Part shown: piece by piece, positions 22,801 to 63,725 of the stretch
Position numbering within the stretch: position 1 is the first letter of the stretch
Layout: the number at the start of each line of letters is the position of its first letter
NCBI GenBank assembly: GCA_023078555.1
Contig: CM041204.1
Location: 1,898,485-1,962,484, forward strand
Direction: 5' to 3'
DNA: 64,000 nt
From: Ulva prolifera
Lineage: Eukaryota > Chlorophyta > Ulvophyceae > Ulvales > Ulvaceae
Translations under genes and position numbers: made by a program
The notes under the pieces: generated by a model
What the model was told of the DNA's origin: nothing
The model's database searches: none
Seen by the model: the letters and a program-made list of their open reading frames with translations, nothing else

Positions 22801-22875
22801 ATACTGCCAATGGTGTCCATCCAAGAGCGCAATCTCACTTTCGGACTCAGCATGTATCGAGACGTAGCTGGACAT
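19818..22875 (-). CDS. Monoacylglycerol-lipase-like alpha/beta hydrolase
   Basis: Seven phase-consistent exons on the minus strand: 22875-22805, 22730-22621, 22132-21906, 21452-21338, 21068-20989, 20787-20667 and 20080-19818. They give 328 residues. The protein begins MSSYVSIHAESESEIALLDG. It carries the oxyanion-region HHGLGDYTAR, then TFDAHGHGYSEP, the nucleophile elbow GPSLGG (catalytic Ser), the acid-residue segment IHGANDVTC (Asp) and the catalytic histidine in PEAKHDLE. This set and order are those of serine-aminopeptidase-like (S33/Hydrolase_4) lipases such as monoacylglycerol lipase, which release fatty acids from monoacylglycerols or lysophospholipids. No signal peptide or membrane helix is seen, so it is probably cytosolic or membrane-peripheral. 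The elbow is GPSLG rather than the commoner GHSMG. The C-terminus ends in a Ser/Ala/Glu-rich tail. Substrate is inferred from family only. Confidence 0.85.
20534..20627. repeat. Large inverted pair of box-A hairpin repeats (copy 2)
   Basis: Arms 20534-20575 and 20584-20627 are near-perfect reverse complements, roughly 43 bp each. Each arm contains the same unit as at 4348 and 41618. The right arm reads GGTCCAGTGGTGTAGCGGTC, with TGGTGTAGCGG matching Pol III box A and closely resembling the 5' part of tRNA-Val genes. It lies in intron 6 of the hydrolase gene. Confidence 0.65.
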
Positions 22876-22889
22876 GGTCTTGTGCGATG

Positions 22890-23790
22890 CGAACGGATGC
22901 GCCAAGCGCAGGGCAGCGATCAAGAAAGCATGAACGCACGAGAGTAGTACAGGACCTTTGCGAAATCACGCACAAAGTTGCGAGGTGTACAGGCTGCGCC
23001 GTAAGCGGGCATCAGCGTCACCGAGCTCAGACGAGAAGCCTATCGCACCTGCCATTCACGAACGAACCATCCTCAGTAACGACATCACCCATGCTGACGG
23101 GCGATGCCTCCAGTTCGGGAGATTGGACGTAGCACGCTGTATAGCGTTTCAAATGTGCTCGTGCTGAGGGAGAATGGAGAGTGGGAGCTGCATGCAGCGA
23201 AGGTGATTAAACTACAATATCACGACATCAACACGAAGCAGGAACGTAACAGAATTGGTTATGTTGCCTGTTCCGCTGCCTCTGCGCTGGCGCACCAGAA
23301 TGGATATGTCTCGTTGCTGGTTGGGAAGGTGTGGAGTCCCCAGCCACAACTGTTCGTGTCGCATGGCGCTCGAGTGCTGCACCAGCTCGCGCCGACAATG
23401 CTTTCATCGGTCTGAAGGTTGCAGCCTTGTTGAGCATACTAAAGGATGCCTGCAAGGCTTTGAGGGGAGCCGGGGAGGGATTGCCTACGGGGCGTCAGCG
23501 ACTCCCCGAGCTTCGTAGTACCGTCGGTGCGTTTGCAGCCTTTCTACTGTTTGCAGCCCATGCAAGGTGGCGAGTCACTGCTGCATATGTCTATGACTGC
23601 TTTCGTGATGGAAACGCAATGCAGTTTCGTGCAGCCACCCGGCTGGGCCCTTTCCGCTGTGGAGGATGCTTATGTCGAGGCCGCGCTGAAACACGGGCAC
23701 ACACGCTTCCAGCAAGCCAATGTTACTAGATGTATGCAAAACGTTTGTGGAGAGAAAATGAATCATATAAACTTTGAACAAGGCTAGGAA
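22890..23790 (+). CDS. Unrecognised plus-strand gene, divergent from the lipase (tentative)
   Basis: Several adjoining open segments have protein-like composition: 22958-23150 (SCEVYRLRRKRASASPSSDE), 23104-23210 (LVLRENGEWELHAAK before a donor AAG|GTGATT), 23340-23520 (NAFIGLKVAALLSILKDACK) and 23630-23720 (PGWALSAVEDAYVEAALKHG). They are in different frames and I could not find splice sites that join them all in phase. The start would lie within about 100 bp of the lipase start codon at 22875, suggesting a shared promoter. Function unknown. Confidence 0.3.
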
Positions 23791-45196: not shown

Positions 45197-46582
45197 ATGT
45201 TTTCAAAACTTTTTATAGCTGGACTGGCTGCAGTGATGCAGGTTGGGCTGGCCGTTGCCGACAATCACGGTGCGCTTCTCACACTGCGACAGCGATTCGT
45301 CAGCACACATAAACTAGATCAACAGATCGCACCCGGCTTTCTAGATATGACGATTCATATTTGCTTTTTGACATCACAGGTTCAGCCACAGGAGCTGGAC
45401 TTGCAAGTTGTCGTGCGAAGAAGCTGGCTGTCCTCTGTGTTGTACATGCAACTTCCGTAGCCATGCACAGATGGCAACATCATGTCAGTATGCATACCTG
45501 AAGGCAAGGCTGATGTTTTGCTTCCTCTGTGTGCAATGACCTGGCCTTGCCGAAGCGGGGAGGACACGGTTTGCTAACACTTCCGTGACGCTGGCTGTGG
45601 CAGCGAGCCCGTATTGCAGATAGAGCCACGCCGTTGAAATGTCTACAGCATTGCTTGTAATGAGATACAGTGTATTTCTCATGTCTCGCAGCTCCGTGGG
45701 GGCCTTGGCGTTCCACTTCTGGTGGTCGTGTGGCCGCTAGCCGGTCTTCCTGCACAGCACACTGCTTCGAAACCCAGGCGTCAAGTATGGGCTTCCTTAC
45801 ACGTGATCATTCTGTGCAGTCAGCTGCCAATGGATCCCTGACGGTGAGGTGTGCATCGCCAGCGTGGACTCTCCCGCCGGAGAGAAGTACACGGCGTTCC
45901 AGCTGCAGTTGGCCATCTGTTCTCAAAACAGTTCCCCGAGTGGATGCGCGGAAGGTGTGTTGCTGCCTGTGACGTGGCCCGCTTGGGCGGGCCTACCTCG
46001 CGCGCGTAGTGCTACATCGCTTGATTCCTAGTCCAGGCATTGCCTGTACCGACCTGCAACGGGGAAGCGTCAAGCCTTCTCTCGAAAATATTGCACCAAG
46101 TTTGTGTTCACAAAATGGCGGAGGTTGCTGACTTAAGCTTGGGCTGTCAACACGCCACACACGGATGTACATCGCGCACTGCTGCCTCTCATCCGCCACG
46201 ACCAGGTCATTTCGCCTGAAAGCCTGTTATGTGCTTGTGTGGACTGCGTCCGAGCGCCCAGCTCCGTACTGTCCTCTTCGCAATATTACGCACATGCACA
46301 AGCTGCACACACCTGCTGCGTGCGCTCTCGTACCAGAGAGGGGACAGCGCTCCCTGTACCACGAGTCCGCCTAAGCCCACACTAGCAGAAGCCTGTGCGC
46401 AAACGTGGCTGCGCCTGTGCAGCTCTGCCAGGCGTGTGCAAGTCCGTCACGGTGACCGGTCTCGGCCTATCGGTGTGTCTCCCGGAGCTCGGCCCGGACA
46501 CGCTGGCACCACAAGACACTCTACGCCTCGCGGACATCAAGGCCTGTGTCGGCGATCCTTCCCCCAACTGCAACGATGTACG

Positions 46583-46615
<33 letters not shown>

Positions 46616-48280
46616 CCTGCTGCAGCGCGCCGTGGCTCACGCTGTGCTGCATGCATGTTCTGCCGCAGCGCAGCTGCCACAGGGAACACGACCGTCTGTG
46701 CTGTGTTCCTGTGTTCCTGTGCGTGCGGTCGCGCTGGCGACGGCCTGTGATCCGCGCCACACCGGCCCACAGGCCAGCACCGTCCGGCCCTCGATGCAGC
46801 CGCATGCATGGCGCAGCCGCATGCATGCAGGTTCGCGCCTCTTTCTACGAGGTCCTCGGGTGCCCAGAATGCGTCGGCCCGGCCAACGAGGCGGCGCCGT
46901 TTGAGGAGGCATGCATCGCCGCGAATGGCAAGGCGGCGTGCGCAGCCGCGTCGCCCAAGGGCGGCGCCGCACCCAAACCCGCCAACGCGACCGCGCCGGC
47001 CGCGGTGACGCCCGCTCCCACCCCGGCTCCGGCGCCTGCAGCAGTTGTGCCGGCCGCCGTGCCCGCCGCAACGCCCGCCGCAACGCCCGTTGCTGCCGAA
47101 ATGCCCGCCGGAGGTGCGCCCGCCATGCATGCATGCACTGCTGCCGGCCGTGCGTGAACGCAGTGGTGTGCGGCGTGACTGCGTGTGTTGCTCTCCGCTC
47201 TGCAGCGCTTTCTGGGACGGCGCCTTTTCTGCGATCCGCGCTCCGACCATCAGACTTGCGTGGCTCACCTTGTTTGTCACCAGGCTGTGACGAGTGTAGT
47301 GGGCCGTCCGCACAGTCAGATGGACGCGTAGGCGATCAAAGTTATTAGACGCGCGCAGCCGAGCACGTCTCGTTGTGGCCACGGCCGCCACCACCCGCGG
47401 CATCCGCTGCTGACACCGCTCCTCTCACGTCACCCGCTGCATGCGGCCGCCCCGTGCCTCTGATGTGCCGCGGTCGTCTTTGACTCATACAAATTTTCGC
47501 TTCTTTCAGTGTCGTCGGTGTAGACCGACCGGTCATCACTCTGGCTTCTCGCCCATTCTGGGTACACGCCGCCGCCGCGCCCTGCTGTGCTGTGCTGTGT
47601 GGTGCAACCATGCATGACATCCTCGCAACTGCAAGGGCATGTGCCCCGCCCTCGTTGCACCGTTGCGCCGTGTATCCGTGCGCTTCATGTGGGGCTACCT
47701 GCCTCGCGACCGTTCTGTCCTTGAAACGCACCGTCTGTCACTGAGTTACCCCTACGCGGCATGTGGTTTCTGGGAGTGCTCCAGCACCGCCTCAGACAGC
47801 TGCTGTGCAGATTCAGATCTGCTTCGTTCTGAGGCGACACTGTGACTGCCGCGCAGCCTCGCCTGATGCACTGCCTCCCTGAGACCCCACAGCCAGCACC
47901 GGGTGCTGAGCACACATCTCGTGTGTGGGGGTCTTGCAGGTCATGCCCTGCCTGGGCCTCGGCGGTCCAGGCCACCGGTGGCACGTGAGGCACCACAGCC
48001 ACGCTGCCTCGCCCAGCTAGCCCCTGAATCGGTTGTTCAAGTTCCTTAGGTCTGGGGCGGGGAGCGACCACCGCTGAGTCACTGCTGACTCAGACGCGCT
48101 GAGTCATCACGGATGTCTGCAGGTGACACGGAGGAAGGTGCGGTGGAAGGTGCGGATGCCGTTGAAGGCTCGGGCGCGGATGAGGCCGCCGGCATCGAGG
48201 AGGAAGGCACCTCTGGCGCGGCTGCCGCGACCGCCGCCGTCAGCCTCCTCGCCGCCGCCGCCGCCGCTATGCTCCTCTAG
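45197..48280 (+). CDS. Secreted Cys-rich three-module, GPI-anchored-type protein, paralog 1
   Basis: Five exons, 45197-45269, 45820-45954, 46423-46577, 46831-47113 and 48123-48280, join in phase (1,1,0,1) to 267 residues. Residues 1-24 (MFSKLFIAGLAAVMQVGLAV) form a signal peptide. Module 1 (CQW ... VC ... IC ... GCAE), module 2 (VCKSVTV ... VCLPE ... AC ... NCND) and module 3 (YEVLGCPEC ... AC ... AC) have four cysteines each. A Pro/Ala/Thr stalk follows, then an acidic Gly-rich stretch and a final hydrophobic tail (AVSLLAAAAAAMLL) after small residues, as in GPI-anchor signals. I do not recognise the family; a cell-surface or wall role is inferred. Extra exons in the 550-bp first intron or the 1-kb last intron cannot be excluded. 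Confidence 0.65.
46583..46614 (+). repeat. Poly-C tract (32 C) next to a splice donor
   Basis: It begins five bases into the intron after module 2 (donor GAT|GTACGC). The equivalent introns of paralogs 2 and 3 also start GTACGCC but lack the run. Confidence 0.9.
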
Positions 48281-50127
48281 ACACCTGTCTGACTCGCGGC
48301 GGGGCCGCCGTGCGGCCGCGCCCTCGCATGCAGGCACACCGCCGCTGCTTCGTGCAGACGGCGGGTCGCACAGGCAATGACCAGGCCGTTTCGTATGGGG
48401 GGGAGGGTGGGGGGGGGGAGTTGTGTTCATCGCACGGTGCTCTGTGTGATTTCTGCGTGCTGTGCTGTGCTGTGCTTGCGTGACCCTCCACCGGCCCCCA
48501 ACAGCTAGCGGTGATGAGCTAGGGTTTGATCAGCTAGGGTTTCGTGGCAGCTTCTGGTCCACGGGCTGTGGATATGCCGATATGAGAAAGTTGATTTCAA
48601 ACGAAACACGGAAAATCTGATCAGGCACGGCCTCGAGTCGGATGGCAGGAGTGTGCCTCGAAGTGGCGGCAGTGGCTGTGCGATTGGCTCGCGGCAGGCC
48701 CGGGCGAGAGGTTTGCATGCGTGATTACAGAGAGGCGGGGAGGCCTGTCGCCTGCTGCTGATTGTTGCATCGTGCCCCTGGGGATGCCAAATCTGTGATC
48801 CTAAAACAGCAGCGCCTTTGTGTAGGGCAAACTGTTCTGATGCGTAGACGTCAGAATCGTGTGGCTGTGTAACTACTGTTACACGGTATACGTTCGCCTC
48901 GAGGCTCCATCAGTCAAGCATCACGCAGGGTTCCCGCAAACAGTTTGCAGCCAGGTCGTGTGCATTGTGCGCAGCGTGTGTGGCGCCAGCAGCAATCTAC
49001 ACTGCTACGAGCAGCAGCTGGTCAACACCGCGTGCTGTCTCTGGTGCGCATGCGCGTGCGTGCATATACAATTGGGCCAGCCTGCGATGCACGCCACGTC
49101 CAGCCTCCCTGTATCTCAGTCCGCAGCATCCCTGACGCCTTCCTGCACCAGTGTCGGCGCCGGCTCATGCGTTGTGATACAGGAAGCGGTGTGGACGGGC
49201 AGGGGATTCCGCAGGCCCCCTCCACACCTGCATGATGAACAAACGCAGCCTCACAATCATGATGCCCATGCACATCAGATATCCGCCAAACCCGCACTGT
49301 CCCAGCCCACTATGGAGAACACCAGCAAAGAATCGGTTGCACGTCATGCCATGCTGGCAAAGGGATTGGCTCAGCCGCACCACACCGGTATGACCACAGC
49401 ATCCAATCACACTCGTTTGGAGATACGGCGGTACCGAATGTCCTGAACAGGACGGTGCTGACGCATGTCATCCGCCTTTTCTCGATCTTCGTTGCCCACG
49501 ATTGGTCGCATGAAGCAAGGTGCGCTTGAAGCGCCGTCGCGCACCCAAGCGCCCATCAGGTGGGGCTTCGAGCCGCCTTCTGCACCGGCTCGCATGCGGG
49601 CCGGGGCAAGCCGACAACCGCCAGCGCCGGCGCCACGCCCCCCAGGCTTGAGGTATCTCCAAGGCCCCCCACTGTGCATAGCACAGCACGCATAGGCTAT
49701 AGCTACAGAGTACGTCTCAAGGTTTGAGAACGTCTTACAAGGCTCGAGTACGTCTCAGGAGGATTCACAACAGCCGCCACAAGTGTGTACCATTTCGGAG
49801 CTATTGTGTGGGGCGCCAGCTTTTGGTTTGGTAGGGGGGGGTTGGAGTTGTGCCGGGGCTGCACGTGCCTGTTGAGAAGCTGTGCAGAGCCCGGCCTGAC
49901 TCAGCTCACCTGTGCAGCAAGCACCTGCAGCGCCTGCATCGCCACGTGCCGCTCCAATGCATTGTCCGCCGCGTGTGCTTGTGTTCAGCGTGCTCCTGTG
50001 ATGCTGCTTACTTCCCCGACTTTGTCCGCTCAACACCCAGCCGCTTCGGCAGACTTCTCCAGGCGTGCGTGCGGCGCCGGCGCAGTCCGCCTCTGCGCGC
50101 ACTACACAAACTCGGACCGCGGTTCCA
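48281..50127. other. Intergenic; possible fragments of a further Cys-rich gene
   Basis: Two short stretches with dense cysteines follow CAG acceptors: 48954-49060 (VVCIVRSVCGASSNLHCYEQ) and 49919-49990 (STCSACIATCRSNALSAACA). They do not match the modules of the neighbouring family well enough to call. AGCTAGGGTTT occurs twice near 48518-48542. Confidence 0.3.
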
Positions 50128-50777
50128 CAACCCGCAGCCATGCATGGCTGCGGGTTGGTCAGCACCATAGCTGACCATGGTCAGCTATGGTGCTATGCTC
50201 GGCCAGCATACAGGATCCCCGATATCGGGGATCCTGTATGGAGCCTTCGCCCAGCATCCATGCACGCGGCTCTGGAACGTAGCTACGCGTAGCAGCACTA
50301 AGCTACAGTATATCGTATACTGTAGCTCCAAGGTGTGACAGGCTCAGAGACGACATCAGAAAGAATCTCTCAGCTTGCAGCATCTCACACATCCTCGCAC
50401 CACAACGACACAGGCCGCCTTGCACGCACTATACCTGCTGATTCCCCTGATCTAACACGACAGCTAGACAAGACGCGCGCCCTGGGGAGCGTGCAGTACT
50501 CGCGTTGATGAAGTCGTGCTCTGCATCACGCGTACGGCTGGCGTGTCATATTCGAATTCGGCAATAGAACTCGGCGATGGAGCCGCACTGTGCACGCAAA
50601 CACTGTACATTTACGCACTGTGTGCGTGTAAGAGGCCGGCTCCGGCCTCTAGCTAGAGCTTGGCCGGCGCCAGCCTCTAGAGCTCTAGAGCTAGGCCGGA
50701 TGTACGGCACATCTCGGCGGCGCCCCAAGGCCTCCACAGCAGTGACAGCAAATTTGCTGTACTGGTTTTAAAACCAG
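50128..50777. repeat. Cluster of perfect palindromes
   Basis: Perfect or near-perfect palindromes follow one another. 50128-50157 is 30 bp centred on ATGCAT, 50161-50194 is 34 bp centred on CCATGG and 50207-50240 is 34 bp centred on GATATC. Then come 50282-50293 (GCTACGCGTAGC), 50301-50327 (12-bp arms, 3-nt loop), 50631-50650, 50647-50658, 50675-50690 (CTCTAGAGCTCTAGAG) and 50762-50777 (CTGGTTTTAAAACCAG). No coding sequence is seen among them. Confidence 0.9.
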
Positions 50778-50988
50778 ACGTGTGGCCACGTGCACGTACA
50801 CAATCTTGGCTTGTACAGGGGCACCTTTATATATGAGCCCGCCTACTAGTGTCGGCCACACCCCCTGCGAGGAAGAAGAACATTAATGTGACAGCACAGC
50901 CTAGGCTACGTGCCTATCGCTACACCGCGCGCGCGACGTCACGGATCGATTTAATTGACTGGCGCTTCATATAATATTGACTGGCATA

Positions 50989-52174
50989 CAGTGCTCTACA
51001 AACCGCCGGTTTTCCCGCTGAAATAGACGTTTTTCCTGAAAATGCCGCCAAGATTTTGAAAAGTCGACGGTTTACGCCGCTGAAACTGGGCTGTTACAGC
51101 AAATGCCAGCGGGCGCAGCCCGCTGTGTCTCGGGCGTCTGAGCGGTCTTGCCCGCTGAAATGTGCGACGTGCGAGCGCAGCGGGCGGGATGTGTTCACAT
51201 TGATAATGCTGCGAGCACACGAGCGAGCGAAGCGAGCGATCTTGACGAGCAGCTGCACCTAGGTGCACAGTGTCAGGTGCACTTTCCGAGACGTCACTGG
51301 ATGCTTTGCTCCGTAGCCGCAACACGCTGGCTCTGTATCGCTACATAATGTTGCGAAGCACAGCTCAAAGTGCCAATAGACGCTGTGTGCACCTGTCGCT
51401 ATGAGCAATGCTTAGTCGGTTCGGTTTCAAGGGGTCAGCCCCCAGAAAGCGCGCTCGTGATGAGGTTGCTAGCACGTCCGGCACGAACCAGGCTGCGAGC
51501 TCGAGAAGTCAGCTAGGCGGTGATCATACGACCGCTGATGTTATCGACGCATGTGGCCGCCCTTGACTCTCAAATACGTGTGAAACAAGCTATCACATTC
51601 GAAGAATTGCGCGAGCAGCATTTTGATCCCAACAGGCCCATAGATGATAAGGAGGGTGCACTCACCATGATAGACATGTATGCGAAACTGGTGAAAGATT
51701 CAAATTGTGGCCTCCTCGTCCGTAAGCTTGCTGAAGCAGTAGCCATGCAGCCTGATGAGGCGTGGGACGCTGTTTTGTCTGATGTGCTTCCAGGTACTGA
51801 AGGTGGTGAGGAGGTAGGTTATAGTGACAATGATGATGAGCAGGACATTGAGCGTGATGAGTTACGCGTGCTGACCTTTGGTATGCAAGCGGGCGACTGA
51901 ATGTGTATGTTGCTGTTGTTGCCCACACAAACAAGCCTTGGAGGTAAATGTATATGATTGCAAAGGTTATTCCTCACTACCATACTTCAGCAGACATATA
52001 TGATTGCGAGCGCAGCGAGCCCGAAATGTTTTTGGCATCCCTCCAGAAAAAAACAATTACGGCGGGATATATATAGCCCTCCGAAATTTCAGCATACCAG
52101 CGGTGCTTGCCCTCTGAAAAATGGAAAAACTCAGCGGGAATCCCTCCATAAAATACGGCGGTTGTAGAGCACTG
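50989..52174. mobile_element. hAT-type DNA transposon, probably non-autonomous
   Basis: The element starts CAGTGCTCTACAA and ends with its exact inverse TTGTAGAGCACTG, and (A)CCGCCG follows the terminus on each side. It is flanked by a perfect 8-bp target duplication, CTGGCATA, at 50981-50988 and 52175-52182. CAG-type termini with an 8-bp duplication are hallmarks of the hAT superfamily. At 1186 bp it is too short for a full hAT transposase. Subterminal GC-rich motifs (CCCGCTGA) repeat near both ends. Confidence 0.85.
51408..51900 (+). CDS. Two overlapping short ORFs inside the hAT element
   Basis: ORF a, 51408-51566, has 52 codons (MLSRFGFKGSAPRKRARDEV...) with a basic patch. ORF b, 51538-51900, has about 120 codons, is acidic and helical (ITFEELREQHFDPNRPIDDK ... 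LLVRKLAEAVAMQPDEAWDA) and ends in an Asp/Glu-rich tail. They overlap by 29 bases in different frames. I see no hAT dimerisation motif or catalytic triad. They may be one frameshifted gene, a captured host fragment or an accessory protein. Confidence 0.45.
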
Positions 52175-52182
52175 CTGGCATA

Positions 52183-54189
52183 TCGGCCGCAAAGGTGACA
52201 TGTGCTCTGAAAGCGGCCTCGAGCGAGCTCGCTCGGCGGTGGCCATGCGCTCCACGAACACACATAAACGATAGATGCACGACTGCTTTGTAGCTGCAAA
52301 TGTGGCAATATGTACTGCACGGGGTCGCGCATGCATGGGGGCATGCGTCTTCGCGGCCTCGCATGCATGGCCATCTCGGCGCAACGTCACTGTGGCGAGC
52401 CACTAGATGTTGACAATTCAAGTCAATTGACATGTGTACGCGATGCGCTGTACTTGTGTACTAACTGAGGTAGAAAGTTCACTGGTTGATGCTGTATTAC
52501 ATGAACATCACGGACCGGCATAACATGTTTCGGCCTTGCCAAAGGGCCTCATCAGACGCCTACGTGAGTCAAGCAACCAACACTGTACTTGTGGCCGGCA
52601 GCCTCGCGACGCCTCGGCGGCGCGCCGACTCACATGGCCGTGCGGAGGCGCATGCGCATTGTACACGTGCACACATCATGTACCACTCGCAACGCTCACG
52701 CGACGAATTCGTCCCTGGCGCCCCGCCCGTCCGACGCGCTACGCAGGGGCGATCTTATACATGTGATGGCAGCCATGAACAATCCGCGACTCACGAAGCG
52801 CTGATGTTTACAGCACACTACAGTCTGCGACTACATGCTGAGACGTTTGTCTGCGTGGCGACGTTCCGGGAGCGGATTGCAGAAGCATGTTTGGGAGCGC
52901 TTGAGATGAGTCAGACCTCGTGTGGCCGCAGGCATCGCCATGCATTGTTCACAACAACGCACCTGCGTGTTCGCACTGCACGGCCGTCACAGCGAGTCCG
53001 AACCCCAGAAACTTCGAGGCGCCGGCGGCTGTGAACGTGTACGTGTGCACACGCTCCCGATCGGGCACGCGCGCTGAAGTTTGCGCACCATAATCTGCAC
53101 GGCCGCTTCGGCGTCGCATGCCTGGGGCACGACGCGACGGTGGCGGCGCATGCGTGCATGAAATATATAATGTGCAGGGCTGCGTGCCCGGGCACGGCAG
53201 CTTCTCTGGAGGAAAGTCTCGTTTATAATAACATGCACACGCGTCGGCGGGATCGATCGCCGGCCGCGTACATAGCACAGTGCGATATAGCGATTTGAAT
53301 GTTGTCGGAGTGGTCTTCGACCAGAACGCGCGGCGCTGTCCACAGGATGGTGCACGCGTGGAGCTGTCACTTGCAGGTCTATCCTAGCTGTCAGCGCAGA
53401 TTTCATGCTGCGTTCACGCTCGAGATGCCGCGAGAAATAACGCGCGCGCGAGCGTCGAGGCGTCGTGGATCTTTTGCTGATTACAAGCTTGTGTTAGCCA
53501 GGCCGTGTCAGCACGCCGCACTGATAATTGACGCTTTGATTTCCCAGTCTGAGCCGAAAAATCAGACATATCTGGATCGCTGACCGTCGAACTCGGCGTG
53601 TGTGCGCGCCGGCACAGGGACCGTCAGCAGGTCTGCTCAGCGGGGGGCCGACTTCAAGCTCGCACGATGCTCTTTTGCCTGCATCTGTCTCGTGTGGCCC
53701 TCCTGCTGCAGGCCTTGCCGTGGTGCCTGGCCGTGGTGCCTGCCTGGCGATCTCGTCAGTGTGACACAAACCCAGGCCTGGCCAGGCCGCCTGGCGTGAT
53801 GATCTGCACAGGAGTGTTGCGGCATTTTCGAGACGTCTAGGGCCGTTCCCGAGCGTGTTTAGTTAATTCTCGTGTATCTTGTCATGCATGGCGCGTTCAA
53901 TCGTGAGGCAGTGACGCATGTAGGCAGCATCTCCCTTCGTGTGTTCGCCACTTCAGGCTCAGTCCAGTGCAGCGCTCGTGTGCGGTGACCGTGCTCCCGC
54001 AACCCAATATTGCCCATCCTCAATATGTCTCACCATCGCATCTCGGGTATCACACAGTCACGCACTCTGCAGTTCACCTTCAAGCCGCGGGCGTCGTTCT
54101 GACAGGCCTCTCCAAGGAAGCACCAGCCGTGGCATCTGCGCCCACTCCAGCGCCGAGCCCTGATTTAATTCTCCATCCTCACAGCCAGG
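52183..54189. other. Intergenic, no gene supported
   Basis: Several CATGCATG motifs and short duplications are present (for example GCCGTGGTGCCTG twice near 53715). No exon with recognisable family or consistent splice phase was found. Confidence 0.5.
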
Positions 54190-57100
54190 ATGTCACGTTT
54201 AGCGCTCGTGGGCCTGCTCGCGGCCGCGCAGCTGGGTCTGGCGATAGCCGAAGGTGCGAGCTTGACCATCGCGACAGCCCGCTGCCTTTCGAAGGAAGCG
54301 TGGCATGCAGGAGCGCAACTGCCCGCCCCATCGACGCAGGAAGCAGACCTTGTTCTCCTGGACGAGCGCTTGAGCCAAATCCGGGCTGGTCGCGCAGCCG
54401 CCTCTGTCGGTAGCGTGCAGGAACAGTCGGATATCGATCCGGTTCACTGGCACGCTAGCTTGTGTTCCGCCAGCATCTGCTCACCCGGCAACGTCCAAGT
54501 CGCTGCCACGACAACACCTGAACTTCTCATGTCTGCGTATGTTGATGGTCAACGGTGTCGAAGCGTCTGTATGATCATGGCCTCGCACGCCTGGAACGTC
54601 ACTGAGAGCATGTCTCGAGTCGGTGCCCCGGCCATCCGCGAGGCCAGCACTGAAACACGCGGTTAATGTCCATATACTGGTCCCTGTTAATGTGCCTCGC
54701 GCGGTGGGTGTCGTGTCATCACACTGGAAGTGTGAACCATAGAATTTCCCGGACATTCCTGTCCATTGCGTCCCCACACCTATCAGAGATCACCGCGTTT
54801 CCCAGCGCGAAAAGGACACCTACCGATTCTGTATGTATCAGCCTTTTCCAAACCTCGCGTCAGATGGCAAGCCTCGCGTCTGCGCACGTGTGTGCGGGGA
54901 CAACAAAAGGTGGGAGTTGCCCAACGGTGATGCGTGCGTGGCTTAGGGGCGCCGTATGAAAGTCGTCCTCTGGCGCGCGAAGCAAGCCAGCCGCGCAGTG
55001 CACGCCCTAGCTCAAGCACTGCGCGTCACACTAGCACCATCGTCGCATTCTCCGTTGCACACGCCCGATGCCATCTGCAGCTGCGGCGTGGCCTGTAAGC
55101 CCAGTGGCGCGAGTGGCCTCCTAGGCAGCTGCGCGCCACTTGACTCCGCTGGCCATTGCTTCTGTGGTGGCTGCTTCCACAAGCAGAGCTGGCCCATGCA
55201 GCAGCCCCTGCATGCATGCATGTACCTGCAGGGCGCCTGTGTCACCTTGTCACACATGTCAACGCAGCAGTGCCAGATGCGCCTCCACACCATGACTCTG
55301 CTTACTGCACTTGTCTGTGTTTGTTTGGACACGGGATCCATCTTTCTCAGCAGCAGCAACACTGTGGTGTCACGGCAACACACACGTGATGTGACATCAA
55401 TGGCTCTAGCAGCCCCAGCAGCCACTGGTGCACGGGGCCGCCCACAGGTGTTAAATTACAGTTAACTTTAATTGTGGCAACTACCTGAGTCATCGCTGCT
55501 GCACACTGCCTCATTTCCCTTCAGGGCCGTCAGCTGCCCTGGGGGGAGTCTGCACCCACACATGTCCTGGTATGTCTGTGTGGCATTGCGCTGCGCTGTG
55601 CAAGGAATCCATGGTCATTAAACTGAACGCCCACATGTGGAGAGATTGCTGAGCCCGGGACGACGTCGATGTTTGTGACCCCCCCCCCGGCCTTTGATGG
55701 GGTCAAATGTGGCCTAGCTGCGGTGTGATGTGGTGTGTACGTTTTCGCAAAAACATGTGCATCTATGCGGCGCGTTGGCGGGCTGAACAGCATGCAGTGC
55801 CGCCGCTGCCGCAGCTCATTGAGTGCAGAGCAGCCCCAATTCACATGCTTCGGTATCCAAGTGCTGTACCCTCAAGCTCTTGTCCCCTGGCCGCTTGAGA
55901 TCGGTGTGCTCATGCAGTTGGATGCGAGTGGGTGGCTGAGGCGTCCACATGCACAGCCGTGTCACACATGGCAGGCGACTCGTCAGCCGACTCGCTCCTC
56001 TCGGACGCGGGCACCTGTATCGAGAACACAGCTTCCGGCATGCAGGGCTGCGAGGAAGGTGCGCACCCGTACGCACGACTGCATGCATGCGTATCTGCGT
56101 GCATGCACGCGTCAGCGTCAGCTGCACTCAATGTTGAGTTCATATGTGCTGTGCGCTGTCCTTCTAGCGCAGCCGCCGGTGCCAATCTGCGCCTGCTTGT
56201 TCGACAGCACGCAGCAGCACAGATGCAGCGTGAGGCGATCTCTAGCCGTCAATCGAGCGCTGGCCGCGCATATGGTGAGCATGCATGTGACGCATGCATG
56301 TGATCGATAATCTCCACCGTGCAGATCTGCCACAGTGCGAGGCGGTGACGGTCGCTGGCCTCAGTTCGTTCGGCATCTGTATCCCAGCGCTTGCCGTCGT
56401 CGGCGCACTGGACGTGAGCGAGGCGGAGAGCCTCTTCGAGATCGAGAATTGCGCCGGGATCGCGTCGGATGAGTGCGACCAGGTACGCCGCCACGCGTGC
56501 ATGCGTGCATGCATGCGAATCTGCGTGACGGGCGACCGCGTGGCGTCGAGGTCTGCTTATGACATCATTCCCTGACAAGAACTCGGGCCGTTTCATGGCA
56601 GACCTCCGAGATCTTGGAAAGCCTAGCTACTTTGTATGGCAGAGCTCCACGTCGAGCCTTAGGTCTGCTTGCGACATGCAGCACGCTGACCATGAATGCT
56701 ATCAGCAACAGCGCTGGCAATGCGCCCAATCATTGTACGATGACAACTATTCACATGTATTTTCATATGTTACCACCCGTTTGATGAAACAAGGATCGGC
56801 TGCAAACAAAGCGCGGTGCAGGTCCGCGAGACCTACTACGGCCTCCTCGGTTGCCCAGAGTGCATCCCGGAGGCCAACGCCGCCGCCGTCCTGGAGTCCA
56901 CGTGCGCCGCAGCGGCCTCTGAGGAGGAGTGCGCGGCCACGTCGGCCCTCGCCGCGGGGGGCCCCGTCACCCCCCCTGCAGATGACGTCGTAGACGACCC
57001 TTATGCAGTGTACGACGCCGTAGGCCCGGTGGTGGAGGACCCATACAACGTCTACGAGGCGCCCGTGTTGGAAGACCCCTTCACGTTCACCTACGATGAT

Positions 57101-58149
57101 GTGGTCGCGCCAGCGGCAGCGCCTGTGGACACGTACTCCAGCTACGATGAAGGCGCGGACGGCATATATGAAGGCACGTTCGAAGGTGTTCAGCCGTACA
57201 GTTACGGTTACACGTACGAGCCGTACTACGACAGCCCTGCTCCGGAACCTGCCACAGACTATTACAGCTACTACTTTTACACGGACTTGTACGGCGCCGT
57301 GCCGGTCGCCGTGGACGCCCTGGCTCCGGTGCCCGCCGCTGACGCCTACGCGACGCCGTATGCCTACCCGTACACGTACTACTTCCCATACGATTACCCG
57401 GCTTCGTACGACGAGGTGCTCGGGCCCGCGGTTGTTGTGGGGCAGGTGCCGCTGCCGGCCCCCGAGGCGATCGCGCCCCTGGACCTTGAGAGCATCGACG
57501 TGACGACCGTCACCGACGCGCCCGGCCCGATTGCGGAGCCGTATGATGACCCCGTGGAGGACACGATCGAGGGGCCGGAGGGGGTCACGACTGAGGATGT
57601 GAGGGAGTTCATCAACCCTGTGCTCTCAGACCGTGCGCACCCGGCCGCCTCTCGCCTGGGTGGATGCCGATTGCGAGAGCTCACGTTCGCTTTTGACTGT
57701 GGTGCCGTAGCTGCTGTGCTGCGCGCTGCTGGGGGCGCAACACCTGATCGCTCGCGACAGCGCGCAGAGCTGCTTCTGTGTGAGCCGTGTATGTGTTCGT
57801 AACCGCCATGTGTGCATGTGGCCCATGCATGAGTACTGCAGCACCATCACGCCGGCACTCGCGTGCTGGGAAGGCAGCGGCACCTACAGCTGCGCCCTTC
57901 GTGGCTTGCCAGACTCACGCTGCAACGTCACGGCTGAGCCCTGAGCCCGAAACAGGGCCAGAGTGCAGCATCCGTCGGTGGAGAAGCTTCGTCTGGTGTG
58001 ACCCAGCGGCGGCGTGCTATGCAGGGGACGCAGACGCGCCGGCGACTGTGCTGCTGGAGCCGTTTGCCGCCGCCGGCCCCGGCCGGCTCTCCTCGGCGGC
58101 TCTGCCGCTCCTCTCCCTCATCGCCGCGCTCGCATGCATGCTCGCCTAG
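54190..58149 (+). CDS. Secreted Cys-rich three-module, GPI-anchored-type protein, paralog 2 (Tyr-rich stalk)
   Basis: Exons 54190-54253, 55918-56058, 56325-56482, 56822-57632 and 58025-58149 join in the same phases as paralog 1 (432 residues). The signal peptide is MSRLALVGLLAAAQLGLAIA. Module 1 is GCEW ... TC ... TC ... GCEE, module 2 QCEAVTV ... ICIPA ... NC ... ECDQ and module 3 YGLLGCPEC ... TC ... EC. The stalk is unlike the other paralogs: a roughly 200-residue stretch rich in Tyr, Asp, Pro and Ala (segments such as DPYNVYEAP, YSYGYTYEPYYDSP and YAYPYTYYFPYDYP). The C-terminus (SSAALPLLSLIAALACMLA) is a GPI-type hydrophobic tail after a small-residue site. Intron 1 (1.66 kb) and the last intron (57633-58024) may hide more exons; the donor at 57633 is chosen for phase. 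Confidence 0.6.
57001..57425 (+). other. Tyr/Asp/Pro-rich stalk of paralog 2
   Basis: Roughly a quarter of the residues are tyrosine, interspersed with Asp/Glu, Pro and Ala. In paralogs 1 and 3 the same position is Pro/Ala-rich. Tyrosine-rich wall proteins can be cross-linked by peroxidases; whether this one is so is unknown. Confidence 0.7.
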
Positions 58150-58594
58150 GCGTGCTGTGGCTCACACGTAGACACACAGACGTGCGCGCCGCCGCGGCGC
58201 TCGTGCGTCCCGACCCGCCGGCTGTCTGCAGCGACGACCCAGGCAAACGACATGATGCGACTGTCGCGGCGAGCTCGCTCAACAGCTTCAGTGATCTCTG
58301 CCGGGGTGGCTACATTTACGCCGCCGAGACGCCATTGGTTCCATGGCTTATGGCCGGGCTGCAGAGGGCATGACGCTTCCGGGCGGGTGCTGTGCCACAT
58401 GTTCGCCGCGGCTAGCAGATGAGATTGGTGGAATGCAGCAGGAGAGGGTGGGGTACCCAACACGCAGCGGTCGCGTTGTCATCGGGGAGCCACACGGCGC
58501 GCTGATCTGTGACCGCTTGGGCCGGTGGTGTCCTCGACGGTGCGCAGTTGACCATTTGAATGTGTGGTTGTTTGTAGCAGTGTACTTACCTCAC

Positions 58595-58601
58595 GGGGGG
58601 G

Positions 58602-58635
<34 letters not shown>

Positions 58636-58643
58636 GGGGGGGG
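58595..58643 (+). repeat. Poly-G tract, about 47 G with two interruptions
   Basis: Runs of G are broken only by C at 58602 and T at 58635. It could form G-quadruplexes on the plus strand. It lies between paralogs 2 and 3. Confidence 0.9.
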
Positions 58644-58800
58644 ATCACCTTGGAGCAAGGCAGGGGCGCAGTAATATATTGTCGCTGCCGGGCACGCTGC
58701 GCATGGTTCTGTTGGCGCTGCCATATCCTTCACATACCCAGACTTGACGTGGCCGCGGCCGAGGGCATGCCCAGGTGTACTGTCGCTGGCGGTGTCGTAC

Positions 58801-61800
58801 ATGGCACGCTACTCACAGGCGCTTGTGCACTCTCTGCCGCCGCTTTGCTGTAGTGTGGCCGCGGCAGGTGAGGTGTACTGTTTTTTTTTATGCAGTCGGG
58901 AGTTCCATGTGTGTGCTGTCTCTGCTGTGCAATTGGGGGCCATGCATCTGAGGGTGGTGTGGCCCCCTCACGGCTGTGCAATAAGATGAATAAGGCCAGC
59001 CGCGCCTTCCTGATTTCGCATTGATTTTATGGGGAAGTCATAGATCTATTGGATTGATTTGTTGGGGGTATTTGTTGGGGGCCGGGGGGCTCGTGCTGCG
59101 TCCCATGCAGTGTTACTCCGCAGCGCTAGCGCTACAGTCGTAGTAGAGGTGTGATGTCTAGTATCTCAGGGATCGTAGCGTCTTGGCTGCTGGGACCTGT
59201 GCCGCAGCGTTTGTGCAGGCCGCATATGGTCCGACATGCTTCCGCCTGCTGCATGGGCCGACACATGCATGGGCCTTGCAGCCTTTGTCAGAGCTGGTGT
59301 GGGGCCACACAATGCGCGGGCTTGCAGCTGTGCATGCCATGTCGCATGCATTTGCGGATGCATTTGCGCAGCTGAACGGTCGCTGCAGCTGTTCTCCAGG
59401 CGGATGCTGCTCTGGCTTCGAGCCATGTCGCAACTTACTGGATGCAAGGATGTAAAGTATCAGCCAGCGATGCTGCATTGCTGCCTTGACTGACCAGCCG
59501 TCCGAATGGCCCACGATCCAGCCCCCTCGTCCACTTGGAACTGACAGCAGACAAGGAGGAGTGTAGTCAACGAGATGGCGTCAGGTTAGGCAGTGACATG
59601 GCAGAACAACCAGACTTCTACATCATCTCTGAAAGTACTAGGTTGCTCGCGCTGGAGAACCACCCATGGTGCAAAGGAGAATCTCCTTAGGAGATTGACA
59701 GTTCCAGGGCACCTCAGCCTGGTGGCTCACCATCATATGCATTCTGGCTGCTTGGCAGATTGGCAAGATTGTGTGTGTGTGTGTGTGTGTGTGCTGGTGA
59801 TTCAGTGATATGACCGCTATACACAACTTGCTCCCATACCTATCATGCAGGGTGTTTGGTCCAGTGAAGAGTGGCACGGGCACATTGGCAAGCCGAATGC
59901 GCTATTGAGCCCCCGTGAGGCAGTTCCTGCGTTACAAGCCTTACGCGATGTACTGGCGATGCCGTGTTGTGCATGCATTGTTGCAAATTTGTTCGACCAC
60001 TATCGGGTTACTGCACGCGACAGATTACAATGATCATACGGCGTGCCTTCGACAAACGTGTAAGAGTACAGATACATTGCACATCTACTCCTTGAGGGTA
60101 GATGCTATGCCCGCATATGACATGCCGAGCTGGACTGAACAGGTCGGAAATTGGAGATGCTTGCACTCCTGAGATCCTGTCGTCATGCTTCAGATTGAGC
60201 TCATGCTGAATGTAAACTGACAATTCTGCCCGTTATGTTCATCTATATGCTGCTATGGGCGTTTGGTTTATGCAACGCATTGGTGCAAAGCGTGAAAGCT
60301 GTTGGTGCGCTCTCTTCAATCGACATGGTTCGAACAGAGGTGCATCTTGTGAAAGCCCGACACTACCGTCAGCAGTACCATTTTTTTTACTTGCGGCTCT
60401 GATAGTGATGTACAAGTCGGCTGCATTAGCGCATGCCCGTTGAACTTGAACGTGCTGACTGTTGGCACATGCCGAAAGTCCCCCAAGGTAGCGCTCGCGA
60501 TCCACAAGGTCCAAAGCCCTTCATAATGTGTTAAATCGTGCAGTGATAATTTCGTTCGTGTTCCCATTTCACTGGCTACACCCTTGATGTGAAACATTCG
60601 ATTGCTCGGTGTCTCCTTGACAGCCTTGGCGCTTCTGTATCCAAACTCTAATCAAATTGCTTGTGCATCGTATGTCACTGGGCAAATCTTTTGTACTGGG
60701 GTGCGAACGCGGTTGCTTTAGCATAATCCAGGGTCGCGTGTCGAGAATGGTCCTTTTGCCGCTGCTGCACCGCGGCCCCGTGCATACATACCGCTGATCA
60801 CCAGGAGGAGTCAACAAGTGTACACCTGAAAGATCATTGTTAAAAATGGCTCGGACATCTGCTAATGCCCTCGCTGCGTATGCAGCTGACTGCGAATGGT
60901 ACGAGGATGTCAACGCTTGCATACCAGTGCTGGACAAGGCAAGCGATGTTGGAGATCAGTACACCCAGCTCACACTTGAGCTCATCGTCTGCCTCGAGAA
61001 CAACGCAGCAGCTTTCACGGGCTGTGAAAGAGGTGCGCTGCATCCCATGAGTGGCATGTACGACGGACATGCTGCTGATGCACACTGTCCGCGATTAAGG
61101 CCTCATCAAGGTGCCGTGCTGGCAAAACGCTATGCTCGTGCTCATATTACCATGAGTATGTGCACTTGCCTGGGCGATTCTCTCATACTAGCTGCTGTAG
61201 CCCATCTACACCAACATATTGCACATCCTGCACACGATGTACACGAGCACACACCATTGCATGGCAAAACGCCGAAATGCACTTCACCGTCACAGATCAA
61301 TTATAGTTCTTCCGATGCAGTTTGTGAGTCCACAATGGGCGCCGCTTCACAGAGCGGTGTTGTGCACCAGTCTGCAGGCCAGGCCACACATCTCAGAGAT
61401 GATCTGGAAGCATGTACTCAGGCACTTGCCTGCGCAATGGCACCCAGCTTGTCACCAGCAATACTCTTGACACATAGACCACATAGCGGCGACCTTAACC
61501 TCAGAGTCCACAGGCACGAGTGCAGAATTCCCAGTGTGGCTTGTTTCGTCATGTGTCATCTTGGCTGTCAGAGCACACAGTAGTATCATATGCACTGGAG
61601 TGTGTGTGCACGTCACTGTCACCTGACTGGCATCAATATGATCCACAATGGACATACAAATCGATCAACCTCGAACAGGATGCTGTTCAGTACAATGACA
61701 GTTTGTGCACCTGAGCAAATGTGCTTCTTCGATCAATCTCAACAGGCAACACCACTCTGTCTTTGTTGCGACGTGCCGATGCATGGCGGGGCCACCCGTG

Positions 61801-63725
61801 ACTGCCGCCTTGAGTTCCTTTCGACCCCCATGCATGCGCAGCAACTGAGGTGCTCACTCTGTCCCCCCCACCGCATGACTCCGCAAATCTGCTGTCACTC
61901 CCCCGCAGAGTGCTCACCAGGCAGCAGCGCGGTGACTCATCGGTGCCGCGAGTCCCGCATCGCCCCCCCCCCCCCCCCTATAGGCATGTCAAATTCAACC
62001 AACCGAAACATTCGCTGACACGAAAGGAATCCCCCCATCCGCATCTGGTGTGAACCACTGATTTCGACACGGCTGACCCTGGCGGTGTGCAGATCACCCG
62101 AAGTATGCGCGATTGTGCGCCAACGTCACCGTCTCCGACGGCGACCCGGGCAACAACATGTGCCTGCCGCAGAGCGCCAACCTCTCCAGCCTGTCCTTCA
62201 GCCAGGCGCGCGAGATGAAGTCATACATCTCATGCATCGGGGAGGCCTCTCCGGAGTGCGAGCTGGTACGCCCCAGCCTGACCCTTCACCCTGGGAGCCG
62301 CCTGTGGACACGGCCGCTCCCGGGGACACCGCCGGCGCGTGCAGCCACAGAATTGGGCCGAGGCCACCGAAGCCACCGTGGCATATGTACGGTCTCATGT
62401 TTTGTTGGATGAATTGCCGGAGCATTAGGGTGCGAAGCGGGGATGTCTCGCGAGCAGGCAAACCGGACCCGATCGCAGCAGCACAGCTGTGGAACCTGGG
62501 GTATCCAATTTTTCAGATGTTCAAGCAGTTGCGACCGGAATCATGCCGTTGTCATACTTCATGTTCCTGGGTCTGTGAGCGCAGGGGTGTCTCCCGCCAA
62601 ACACACAGAATATGATTTGGTTCTGTCAAATGACCCCGCTGTCCCCTTACCTTGCGAGCCAGACGGTCCGACGGCCTGCTGGCCATTGAGACCAACACCC
62701 GCACAATGTAGCACATGCACACAGCACTGCCGGTGCGACAGCCACGCACGACCGGCCACGGCCGGGTCCGAGGTGGGTCGGCTTCCGTCGCCATTGGTCG
62801 CGTTCAGGACAGCACGTGGGCTGCCCCGGCGGTGCAACCGGCCCCTCCAGCTTTGTCCTTGTAACACATGACGGGCCTAACTTCTTCCGGAGGCGTGCAG
62901 GTTCGCGCCGGCCTGTACGACTTTCTCGGCTGCAAACCCTGCGGAGACGTCGCCAACGCCGCGGCCCTCGTGGAGGGCGCATGCACGTCAGTCTTCGGCG
63001 CCGACGGCACGGCGGCCGCGTGCGCCGCGGCGGGGGCCGCCGCGCCAGACACGGACGCCCGGGCCATCGCCAACGTGACCGGCGTGCCGCTGCAGCCGCA
63101 AACGTCGCCGGGGAACGACTCTGGCGTGAGCGTGCCGCTGCTCGGCGGCCCGCCGACGGTGCGGGGGGGCGCCGTTGACACGCCCGGAGCGGGCGCACCG
63201 GCCCCGGCGCCGGCGCCGGCGCCGATGCCCGCGCCGGCAGATGAAGCGGCAACTGCGCCGGAAGCAGGTGTGGATCTGCTCCATACTGGCGTCTGTAGCA
63301 GCCTTGATCACAGATGCGGGCATCCAAATTCATGGATGCCGTGTGCATGCGCCGGTGGAGTGGTGGCTGGGGCGCCACATGCATTGTGGCCCTGTGTGAC
63401 AACTTGAAGCCGGTGACTATCCAGATCCGCATGAGCTGAAACGGCGGTATGCATGAGTCAGATGCATGCACTCACGACTCAGAGGGTATGCTGGTCGTGT
63501 GTCAGCGCCGAGTGTCTCATGGGATCCAGCTCCGGTGCATGGTGTCCGGCTCCGTCACGACGCGGAGGCGCATGTGCAGGGGGCGCGGGGCAGGAGACCT
63601 CCGCCGCGCAAGCGTCGCCAGCGGCCCCTGAAGACACCGTCCAGCAGAGCCGCGCCGCCCCCCTCCGTGCCGCTATGGCCGTCGCGGCGGTGGCCGCAGC
63701 GGCAGCGTCTGCATGCATGCTGTAG
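58801..63725 (+). CDS. Secreted Cys-rich three-module, GPI-anchored-type protein, paralog 3
   Basis: Solid exons are 60886-61032 (module 1: DCEWYEDVNAC ... VC ... GCE), 62093-62265 (module 2: LCANVTV ... MCLPQ ... SC ... ECEL), 62901-63267 (module 3: YDFLGCKPC ... AC ... AC, then a Pro/Ala stalk) and 63580-63725 (tail AAMAVAAVAAAAASACML). Their intron phases equal those of paralogs 1 and 2. The first exon is uncertain: 58801-58867 (MARYSQALVHSLPPLCCSVA, donor GCAG|GTGAGG, phase 1) fits in length and phase but is a weak signal peptide and lies 2 kb upstream. A further Cys-containing phase-1 segment at about 61320-61440 may be an additional exon. The product would be about 300 residues. Function unknown, as for its paralogs. 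Confidence 0.55.
59771..59793 (+). repeat. (GT)n microsatellite
   Basis: About eleven GT units lie in the presumed first intron of paralog 3, immediately before the fourth box-A hairpin relative. Confidence 0.9.
59796..59826 (-). repeat. Box-A hairpin relative (copy 4, degenerate)
   Basis: On the minus strand it reads GTATAGCGGTCATATCACTG, identical to the loop and right stem of copies 1-3, but the left arm no longer pairs. Confidence 0.5.
61965..61979 (+). repeat. Poly-C tract
   Basis: A C-run of about 14 lies in the intron before module 2 of paralog 3. Confidence 0.8.
62838..62872 (-). mobile_element. Fragment of the GTGTTACAAGGACAAAG element
   Basis: On the minus strand it reads GTGTTACAAGGACAAAGC followed by GGAGGGGCCGGT and GCACCGCC, almost identical to 5553-5590. 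It lies about 30 bp before the module-3 acceptor of paralog 3. Confidence 0.6.

Follow-up and report, generated by a model that had tools for sequence, protein, structure and literature searches.

Proteins in which a disulphide-braced head is carried on a stalk are familiar, as this is the look of many binding or adhesion proteins. Among green algae, the pherophorins of volvocine species are matrix proteins that are rich in cysteine, contain proline-rich stretches and form multigene families. The nsLTPs, in turn, are defined by an eight-cysteine motif, C..C..CC..CxC..C..C. In the part of the source cited here (PMC12209756), chimeric AGPs are recognised by at least three [STAGV]P dipeptides, no more than six residues apart, beside a known functional domain, and some LTPs are described as GPI-anchored. 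AGP-type proteins also occur in the walls of brown algae, according to the section cited (PMC8307928).

The locus described here lies in a window of 64,000 nucleotides of the Ulva prolifera genome (C9:1898485-1962484) and comprises three adjacent genes, A, B and C (45197-63725), that share a plan of signal exon, three modules (m1, m2 and m3), stalk and hydrophobic tail. An earlier note on this DNA had proposed that the three genes have one plan and identical intron phases, and both proposals were borne out: A, B and C splice with the same module order, with phases 1,1,0,1 in each and with every intron GT-AG, including the four junctions named for gene A (45269/45820, 45954/46423, 46577/46831 and 47113/48123). 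The features are listed below, with bit scores from profiles built only from copies outside the window.

45197..45269, + strand: gene A exon 1, predicted signal peptide MFSKLFIAGLAAVMQVGLAVADNH; ends in phase 1; from splicing and a hydropathy scan
45820..45954, + strand: gene A exon 2, m1; ends in phase 1; 45.9 bits
46423..46577, + strand: gene A exon 3, m2; ends in phase 0; 19.3 bits
46831..47113, + strand: gene A exon 4, m3 and Ala-Pro-rich stalk; ends in phase 1; 32.6 bits
48123..48280, + strand: gene A exon 5, acidic stalk, hydrophobic tail and stop; from the spliced translation
54190..54253, + strand: gene B exon 1, predicted signal peptide MSRLALVGLLAAAQLGLAIAE; ends in phase 1; from the hydropathy scan, in which other signal-like frames lie closer to m1
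55918..56058, + strand: gene B exon 2, m1; from the A/B/C alignment and splicing; 7.8 bits, below controls
56325..56482, + strand: gene B exon 3, m2; from the A/B/C alignment and splicing; 11.5 bits, within the control range
56822..57632, + strand: gene B exon 4, m3 and Tyr/Asp/Pro-rich stalk; 47.9 bits, and found by genome search
58025..58149, + strand: gene B exon 5, hydrophobic tail and stop; from the spliced translation
60235..60304, + strand: gene C exon 1, tentative candidate signal peptide MFIYMLLWAFGLCNALVQSVKAV; donor GTGCGC; chosen by eye
60886..61032, + strand: gene C exon 2, m1; 33.6 bits
62093..62265, + strand: gene C exon 3, m2; 26.3 bits
62901..63267, + strand: gene C exon 4, m3 and Ala-Pro-rich stalk; 29.0 bits
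63580..63725, + strand: gene C exon 5, hydrophobic tail and stop; from the spliced translation

The spliced frames encode 267 (A), 432 (B) and 300 residues (C, whose stop ends at 63725). The suggestion that these are 12-cysteine proteins holds for the modules, which contain 12 in each gene, and for the precursor of gene A, which has exactly 12, but not for the whole precursors of B and C, with 13 and 14. All 12 acceptors end in GCAG, and nine of the 12 donors are GTGCGC, GTGCGA or GTACGC-like (one more each is GTGTGT, GTACGC or GTGTGG). The weakest point of the three gene models is the signal exon of gene C, and we regard it as tentative: the best hydropathy of the candidate, 1.98, is just below the scan threshold of 2.0, and the scan returned a candidate at 58890 instead.

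Other features share the window. Between genes A and B lies an element of 1.19 kb (50989-52174) that has inverted ends of 13 bases CAGTGCTCTACAA and for which a genome search listed 55 matches; besides the element itself, 19 of the listed matches cover at least 1,100 of 1,211 bases. Seventeen of these long matches are 94-99% identical, which shows that the element was mobile until recently; the frame of 127 aa that it carries (51517-51897) matches nothing in Pfam. Elsewhere, an open frame at 6452-8323 matches the leucine-rich repeat family LRR_14 (E 2.2e-12), and one on the minus strand at 21810-22919 carries a partial domain of the serine aminopeptidase S33 / alpha-beta hydrolase type (E 2e-11). 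In the wider genome, nuclear RbcS exons, which we read as being of green type, and 25 matches to the LHC domain indicate a green alga.

The family extends well beyond the window. When the head of A was searched by tblastn against the whole genome (88.9 Mb, 44 contigs), it found m3 of B (E 2.3e-5) and of C (E 0.0097) and also reached C2 (a fragment), C7 and C6 (E 5.6e-7 to 0.004), and the head of C, independently of A and B, matched copies on C6 (E 6.1e-7), C2 (E 1.8e-5) and C3 (E 3.6e-5). At E<=10 there were 18 places with the A head and 11 with m3 of B; two further queries added C2:1.409M, C2:1.414M and C3:7.158M, and two more gave no clear member. Module profiles run on 12 + 2 retrieved genome stretches, which took in the flanks of a minority of the places, gave 17 copies, so that all counts are minima. 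A fourth copy, D, lies on C9 about 8 kb beyond the window edge, and besides A-D the genome holds at least 13 further copies, whole or partial, which are distributed over seven other places; two degraded fragments come in addition. The description of the locus as a tandem array is thus partly upheld: local clusters are real (A-D on C9, a group of four on C6 that includes one inverted copy, and four at C2:1.39-1.41M, with the others single), but the array runs past the window edge to D and copies are spread over six contigs.

All three modules are present in 13 of the 17 copies, namely A, B, C and D, the four on C6, C2:1388k a and d, C2:4.69M, C4:188k and C3:7.168M, with weak m1 matches in D (E 0.0088, and without the last cysteine), C2:1388k a (0.063) and C2:1388k d (0.012). 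The remaining four are incomplete as found: m1 was not found in C2:1388k b, m2 was not found in C7:751k or in C2:1.785M (whose m3 also lacks its first cysteine), and C2:1388k c has m2 followed by in-frame stops in m3. Of the two degraded fragments, C3:7.158M is 77% identical to C3a at the DNA level (202 aligned columns, 13 gaps) and changes frame, and C2:11187059-11187226 (C2:11.187M), on another contig than gene A, has 83% identity to the m2 region of that gene with its frame split, and reads as a stray pseudogene fragment of the gene A m2 exon.

The profile controls bear on whether the window modules exceed chance. Profiles were built from non-window rows only (9 m1, 10 m2 and 12 m3) and run on the 1635 window frames of at least 25 aa, on the reversed window and on five Markov-resampled windows. 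The window modules ranked 1, 2 and 4 for m1 (45.9, 33.6 and 7.8 bits; best control 16.0), 1-3 for m2 (26.3, 19.3 and 11.5 bits; best control 12.7) and 1-3 for m3 (47.9, 32.6 and 29.0 bits; best control 11.1), so that seven of nine exceeded every control, in a test that is partly non-blind, as A and B had served to find the outside places and profiles including C had set the limits of the modules. The exceptions are m1 and m2 of B, the former ranking below an unrelated minus-strand window frame at 24265 (9.3 bits), and both are assigned by their order, their phase and the alignments of A, B and C.

Splice sites in the paralogues point the same way, measured against a background sampled from those genome stretches themselves. 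In 12/15 m1 and 14/15 m2, an AG in the expected phase precedes the module by 2 or 5 bases, compared with 11% of sampled positions; within 17 bases upstream, such an AG was present for all 15 m1 and all 15 m2 (background 30%) and was the nearest AG in 14/15 and 11/15, respectively. A phase-1 GT followed m1 within 10 bases in 14/15, D being the exception (background 22%). At the junction of m2 and m3, all seven split copies (A, B, C, D, C4, C2:4.69M and C7) have an AG 0 or 3 bases before m3, and five of the six that have m2 carry a GT 0 or 3 bases after it, against 12% in both cases; the exception, C2:4.69M, may use a GC donor.

Seven copies have this m2/m3 intron, whereas eight (C6a-d, C3a and C2:1388k a, b and d) lack it, their frame continuing unbroken across exactly that point. 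The view that each module is one exon is therefore correct for part of the family, including A, B and C, but m2 and m3 form a single frame in 8 of the 17 copies. The difference is the gain or loss of a single intron at one fixed site, with the direction left undecided by a tree of 14 m2+m3 heads in which no inner branch was strongly supported. Intron-present and intron-absent labels were clustered on this tree (9 and 2 of 500 shuffles as low), and single origins of the two states are unsure because of its long branches. An intron present or absent at one exact site marks branches of the family.

The cysteine framework of the head is rigid. The rules C-x7..10-C-x21..23-C-x8..11-C for m1, C-x12..17-C-x21..23-C-x7..9-C for m2 and C-x2-C-x13-C-x8..12-C for m3 fit 9/12, 9/13 and 13/15 rows, and the long gap is 21-23 in 11/12 m1 rows and 21-25 in 13/13 m2 rows. 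Departures are C6c (extra cysteine), C3a (last gap 15) and C2:1.785M (extra cysteine, other spacing) in m1; C2:4.69M (extra cysteine), C3a (first gap 20), C6d (25 and 13) and D (24 and 11) in m2; and D (extra cysteine) and C2:1.785M (one cysteine missing) in m3. Across 12 aligned heads, from among the 17 copies, the eight cysteines of m2 and m3, one proline in m2 and one arginine before m3 are invariant, and the four m1 cysteines are kept in all 10 aligned heads that include m1; all 12 heads are acidic, with net charges of -4 to -25. As the rules describe most rows, searching other algae for the family should be straightforward. An internal triplication, suggested by the likeness of the three modules in cysteine layout, was considered and set aside, with profile comparison giving local P values of 0.023 (m1/m2), 0.2 (m1/m3) and 0.078 (m2/m3) and a common module origin being unsupported. 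Structure prediction of single modules, a check put forward in the earlier note, was of little use: models of m2 (two strands and one helix) and m3 (one short and one long helix), each from three window rows, had mean pLDDT of 63.6 and 64.2, too low for a fold search, and for this reason no fold lends support to binding.

Secretion and anchoring are predicted from hydrophobic stretches at both ends of the precursors. A hydropathy scan of 14 copies, run without a chance control, gave phase-1 signal-like exons for A and B and candidates for most others, often several per gene, and found no signal exon for C6a-d (0/4). In all eight tails examined, of the 17 copies, the last 18 residues lack Asp, Glu, Lys and Arg (one contains His; those of A, B and C have no acidic, basic or His residue), and the mean Kyte-Doolittle value of the last 15 residues is 1.95-2.43, a measure of hydropathy only, with no chance control. 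Such a C-terminus, hydrophobic and free of acidic or basic residues, is the basis on which the proteins are probably GPI-anchored.

Between head and tail, stalks differ widely in length and composition among copies, as the idea of stalk replacement had anticipated. They are Ala-Pro-rich in A, C and C4 and Tyr/Asp/Pro-rich in B, and C2:1388k a (L034:6959-7583) has long imperfect repeats of 60, 75 and 156 bases with GDGDIVV and GVTIDG motifs, unlike the window stalks. The AGP dipeptide rule was passed by six of the eight copies tested (of 17), with [STAGV]P runs of 12 (A), 4 (B), 8 (C), 27 (C4), 4 (C6d) and 3 (C2_138d), and no AGP-like run was seen in the part examined of C6c or C2:4.69M. The Ala-Pro runs of A, C and C4 were matched in 0/1000 residue shuffles. 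By itself, however, the rule is weak: the B run is at chance level (216/1000 shuffles), and 32 of the 162 window frames satisfy it as well.

In the head of the C2:1388k a/b pair, amino acid changes have accumulated at about the rate of silent ones (dN 0.28, dS 0.26; 56/94 residues identical), with all eight cysteines kept and none gained or lost, an observation that rests on this one pair, in which b is without a found m1. Pairings that involve the broken copy c yielded dN 0.39 with dS 0.44 and dN 0.57 with dS 0.40. As a yardstick, two nuclear RbcS paralogues gave dN 0.28 and dS 3.6 over 98 codons, the RbcS dN being inflated by a last dozen codons aligned without gaps, probably wrongly; GC3 was 0.90-0.91 in the a/b pair and 0.79-0.81 in RbcS. 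The a/b rate is a pointer to selected change or to loose constraint, and is proof of neither; dN near dS could reflect relaxed constraint, gene conversion or third-position limits.

Taken together, we consider it reasonably probable that the products of this multigene family are secreted and have a compact acidic head, some 135-150 residues long and braced by 12 conserved cysteines in three modules of four, on a presumably O-glycosylated stalk that varies from copy to copy and ends in a hydrophobic tail probably exchanged for a GPI anchor. The disulphide-braced scaffold would hold fast-varying loops away from the plasma membrane or wall, where, at a guess, they would bind an external target such as a wall polymer, a partner cell or a microbe. 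That the frames arise by chance in a GC-rich genome has a negligible probability: long frames are indeed common (162 stop-to-stop frames of at least 120 aa in the window) and m1 and m2 of B alone do not rise above controls, but the other seven modules do, genome-wide E-values with several family queries are against it, and splice sites stand well above background. The remark that random open frames would not show such regularity has thus been substantiated, and on sequence grounds the three window genes can be taken as a real gene family. It is also very improbable that the family is partly dead, with most copies unexpressed remnants; the stops in C2 copy c, the frame shifts of C3:7.158M, the m2 fragment at C2:11.187M and the four copies lacking a module would fit, but 13 copies hold all three modules in open frames, and expected splice sites are absent only at the D m1 donor and the C2:4.69M m2 GT donor.

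A more serious alternative, though one we still hold to be fairly unlikely, is that these are structural wall glycoproteins, in which the stalk does the work and the head, serving only for folding or cross-linking, drifts because only its cysteines matter. The breadth of stalk variation, a dN close to dS, as expected of weak constraint between cysteines, and the AGP-type proteins of brown algal walls (PMC8307928, in the section cited) are all compatible with this, but it is the head rather than the stalk that is conserved, with rigid cysteine spacing and with the m2 proline and the arginine before m3 invariant in 12 aligned heads. Secreted defence or antimicrobial proteins, released from the stalk by proteolysis, would likewise be cysteine-rich and fast-changing, with clustered and sometimes broken copies; we judge this improbable, as all eight copies examined have a hydrophobic tail, no Pfam family was matched, and the 12 aligned heads are uniformly acidic, which most antimicrobial peptides are not. 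Returning to the stalked binding head, it is tempting to speculate further that it represents a new class of recognition protein, with a fixed 12-cysteine head, loops selected to change and swappable stalks, acting in cell-cell, mating, self/non-self or microbe recognition, a possibility that we regard as doubtful. If change in the head is driven by selection, the family would offer a directly testable recognition system; as it stands, the surface proteins of green algae, about which little is known, gain with it a clean and unnamed group.

The expectation that no known domain could be assigned was confirmed, with no relative above cut-off in Pfam, NCBIfam, PADLOC or, by sequence, PDB. Several matches were taken as chance: PDB profile matches to translation initiation factor 2 beta (E 0.14 and 0.35), a phmmer match to a proteasome subunit (E 0.25), five NCBIfam families with one member each (E 0.026-0.44) and Pcf11_C in Pfam (E 0.04-0.11). 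Single-protein queries, one each, which could detect close relatives only, returned none from viral contigs or prokaryote genomes, searches that do not reach as far as the term lineage-specific used in the earlier note, and a literature search, judged by title or abstract, returned no description of such a family.

Like the pherophorins, the A-C family is green algal, cysteine-rich and multigene, with proline-rich stretches; it differs in having one head followed by a stalk and hydrophobic tail, and the pherophorin Pfam domain, mentioned in the earlier note, matched 0/12 heads at E<=10 within HMMER's filters. With the nsLTPs it shares a small, cysteine-rich, probably secreted head, and m2 and m3 together also hold eight cysteines, but these run approximately C-x12..20-C-x21..25-C-x7..13-C, then C-x2-C-x13-C-x8..12-C, so that the nsLTP arrangement is absent, with neither CC nor CxC in the shared spacing, and there is no Pfam match; some LTPs are GPI-anchored, in the part of the source cited (PMC12209756). 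Chimeric AGPs that are GPI-anchored, such as the xylogen-like proteins of land plants, are a further comparison. We have left the algal family out of the chimeric AGPs because its head has no Pfam match over cut-off and hence no known domain; its 12-cysteine spacing is also different, and its stalk is AGP-like in some copies only. Set against the portion of that literature cited (PMC12209756), the two groups nonetheless have in common a predicted signal peptide, a head probably stabilised by cysteines, a stalk rich in alanine and proline (in some copies) and a putative GPI-type tail.
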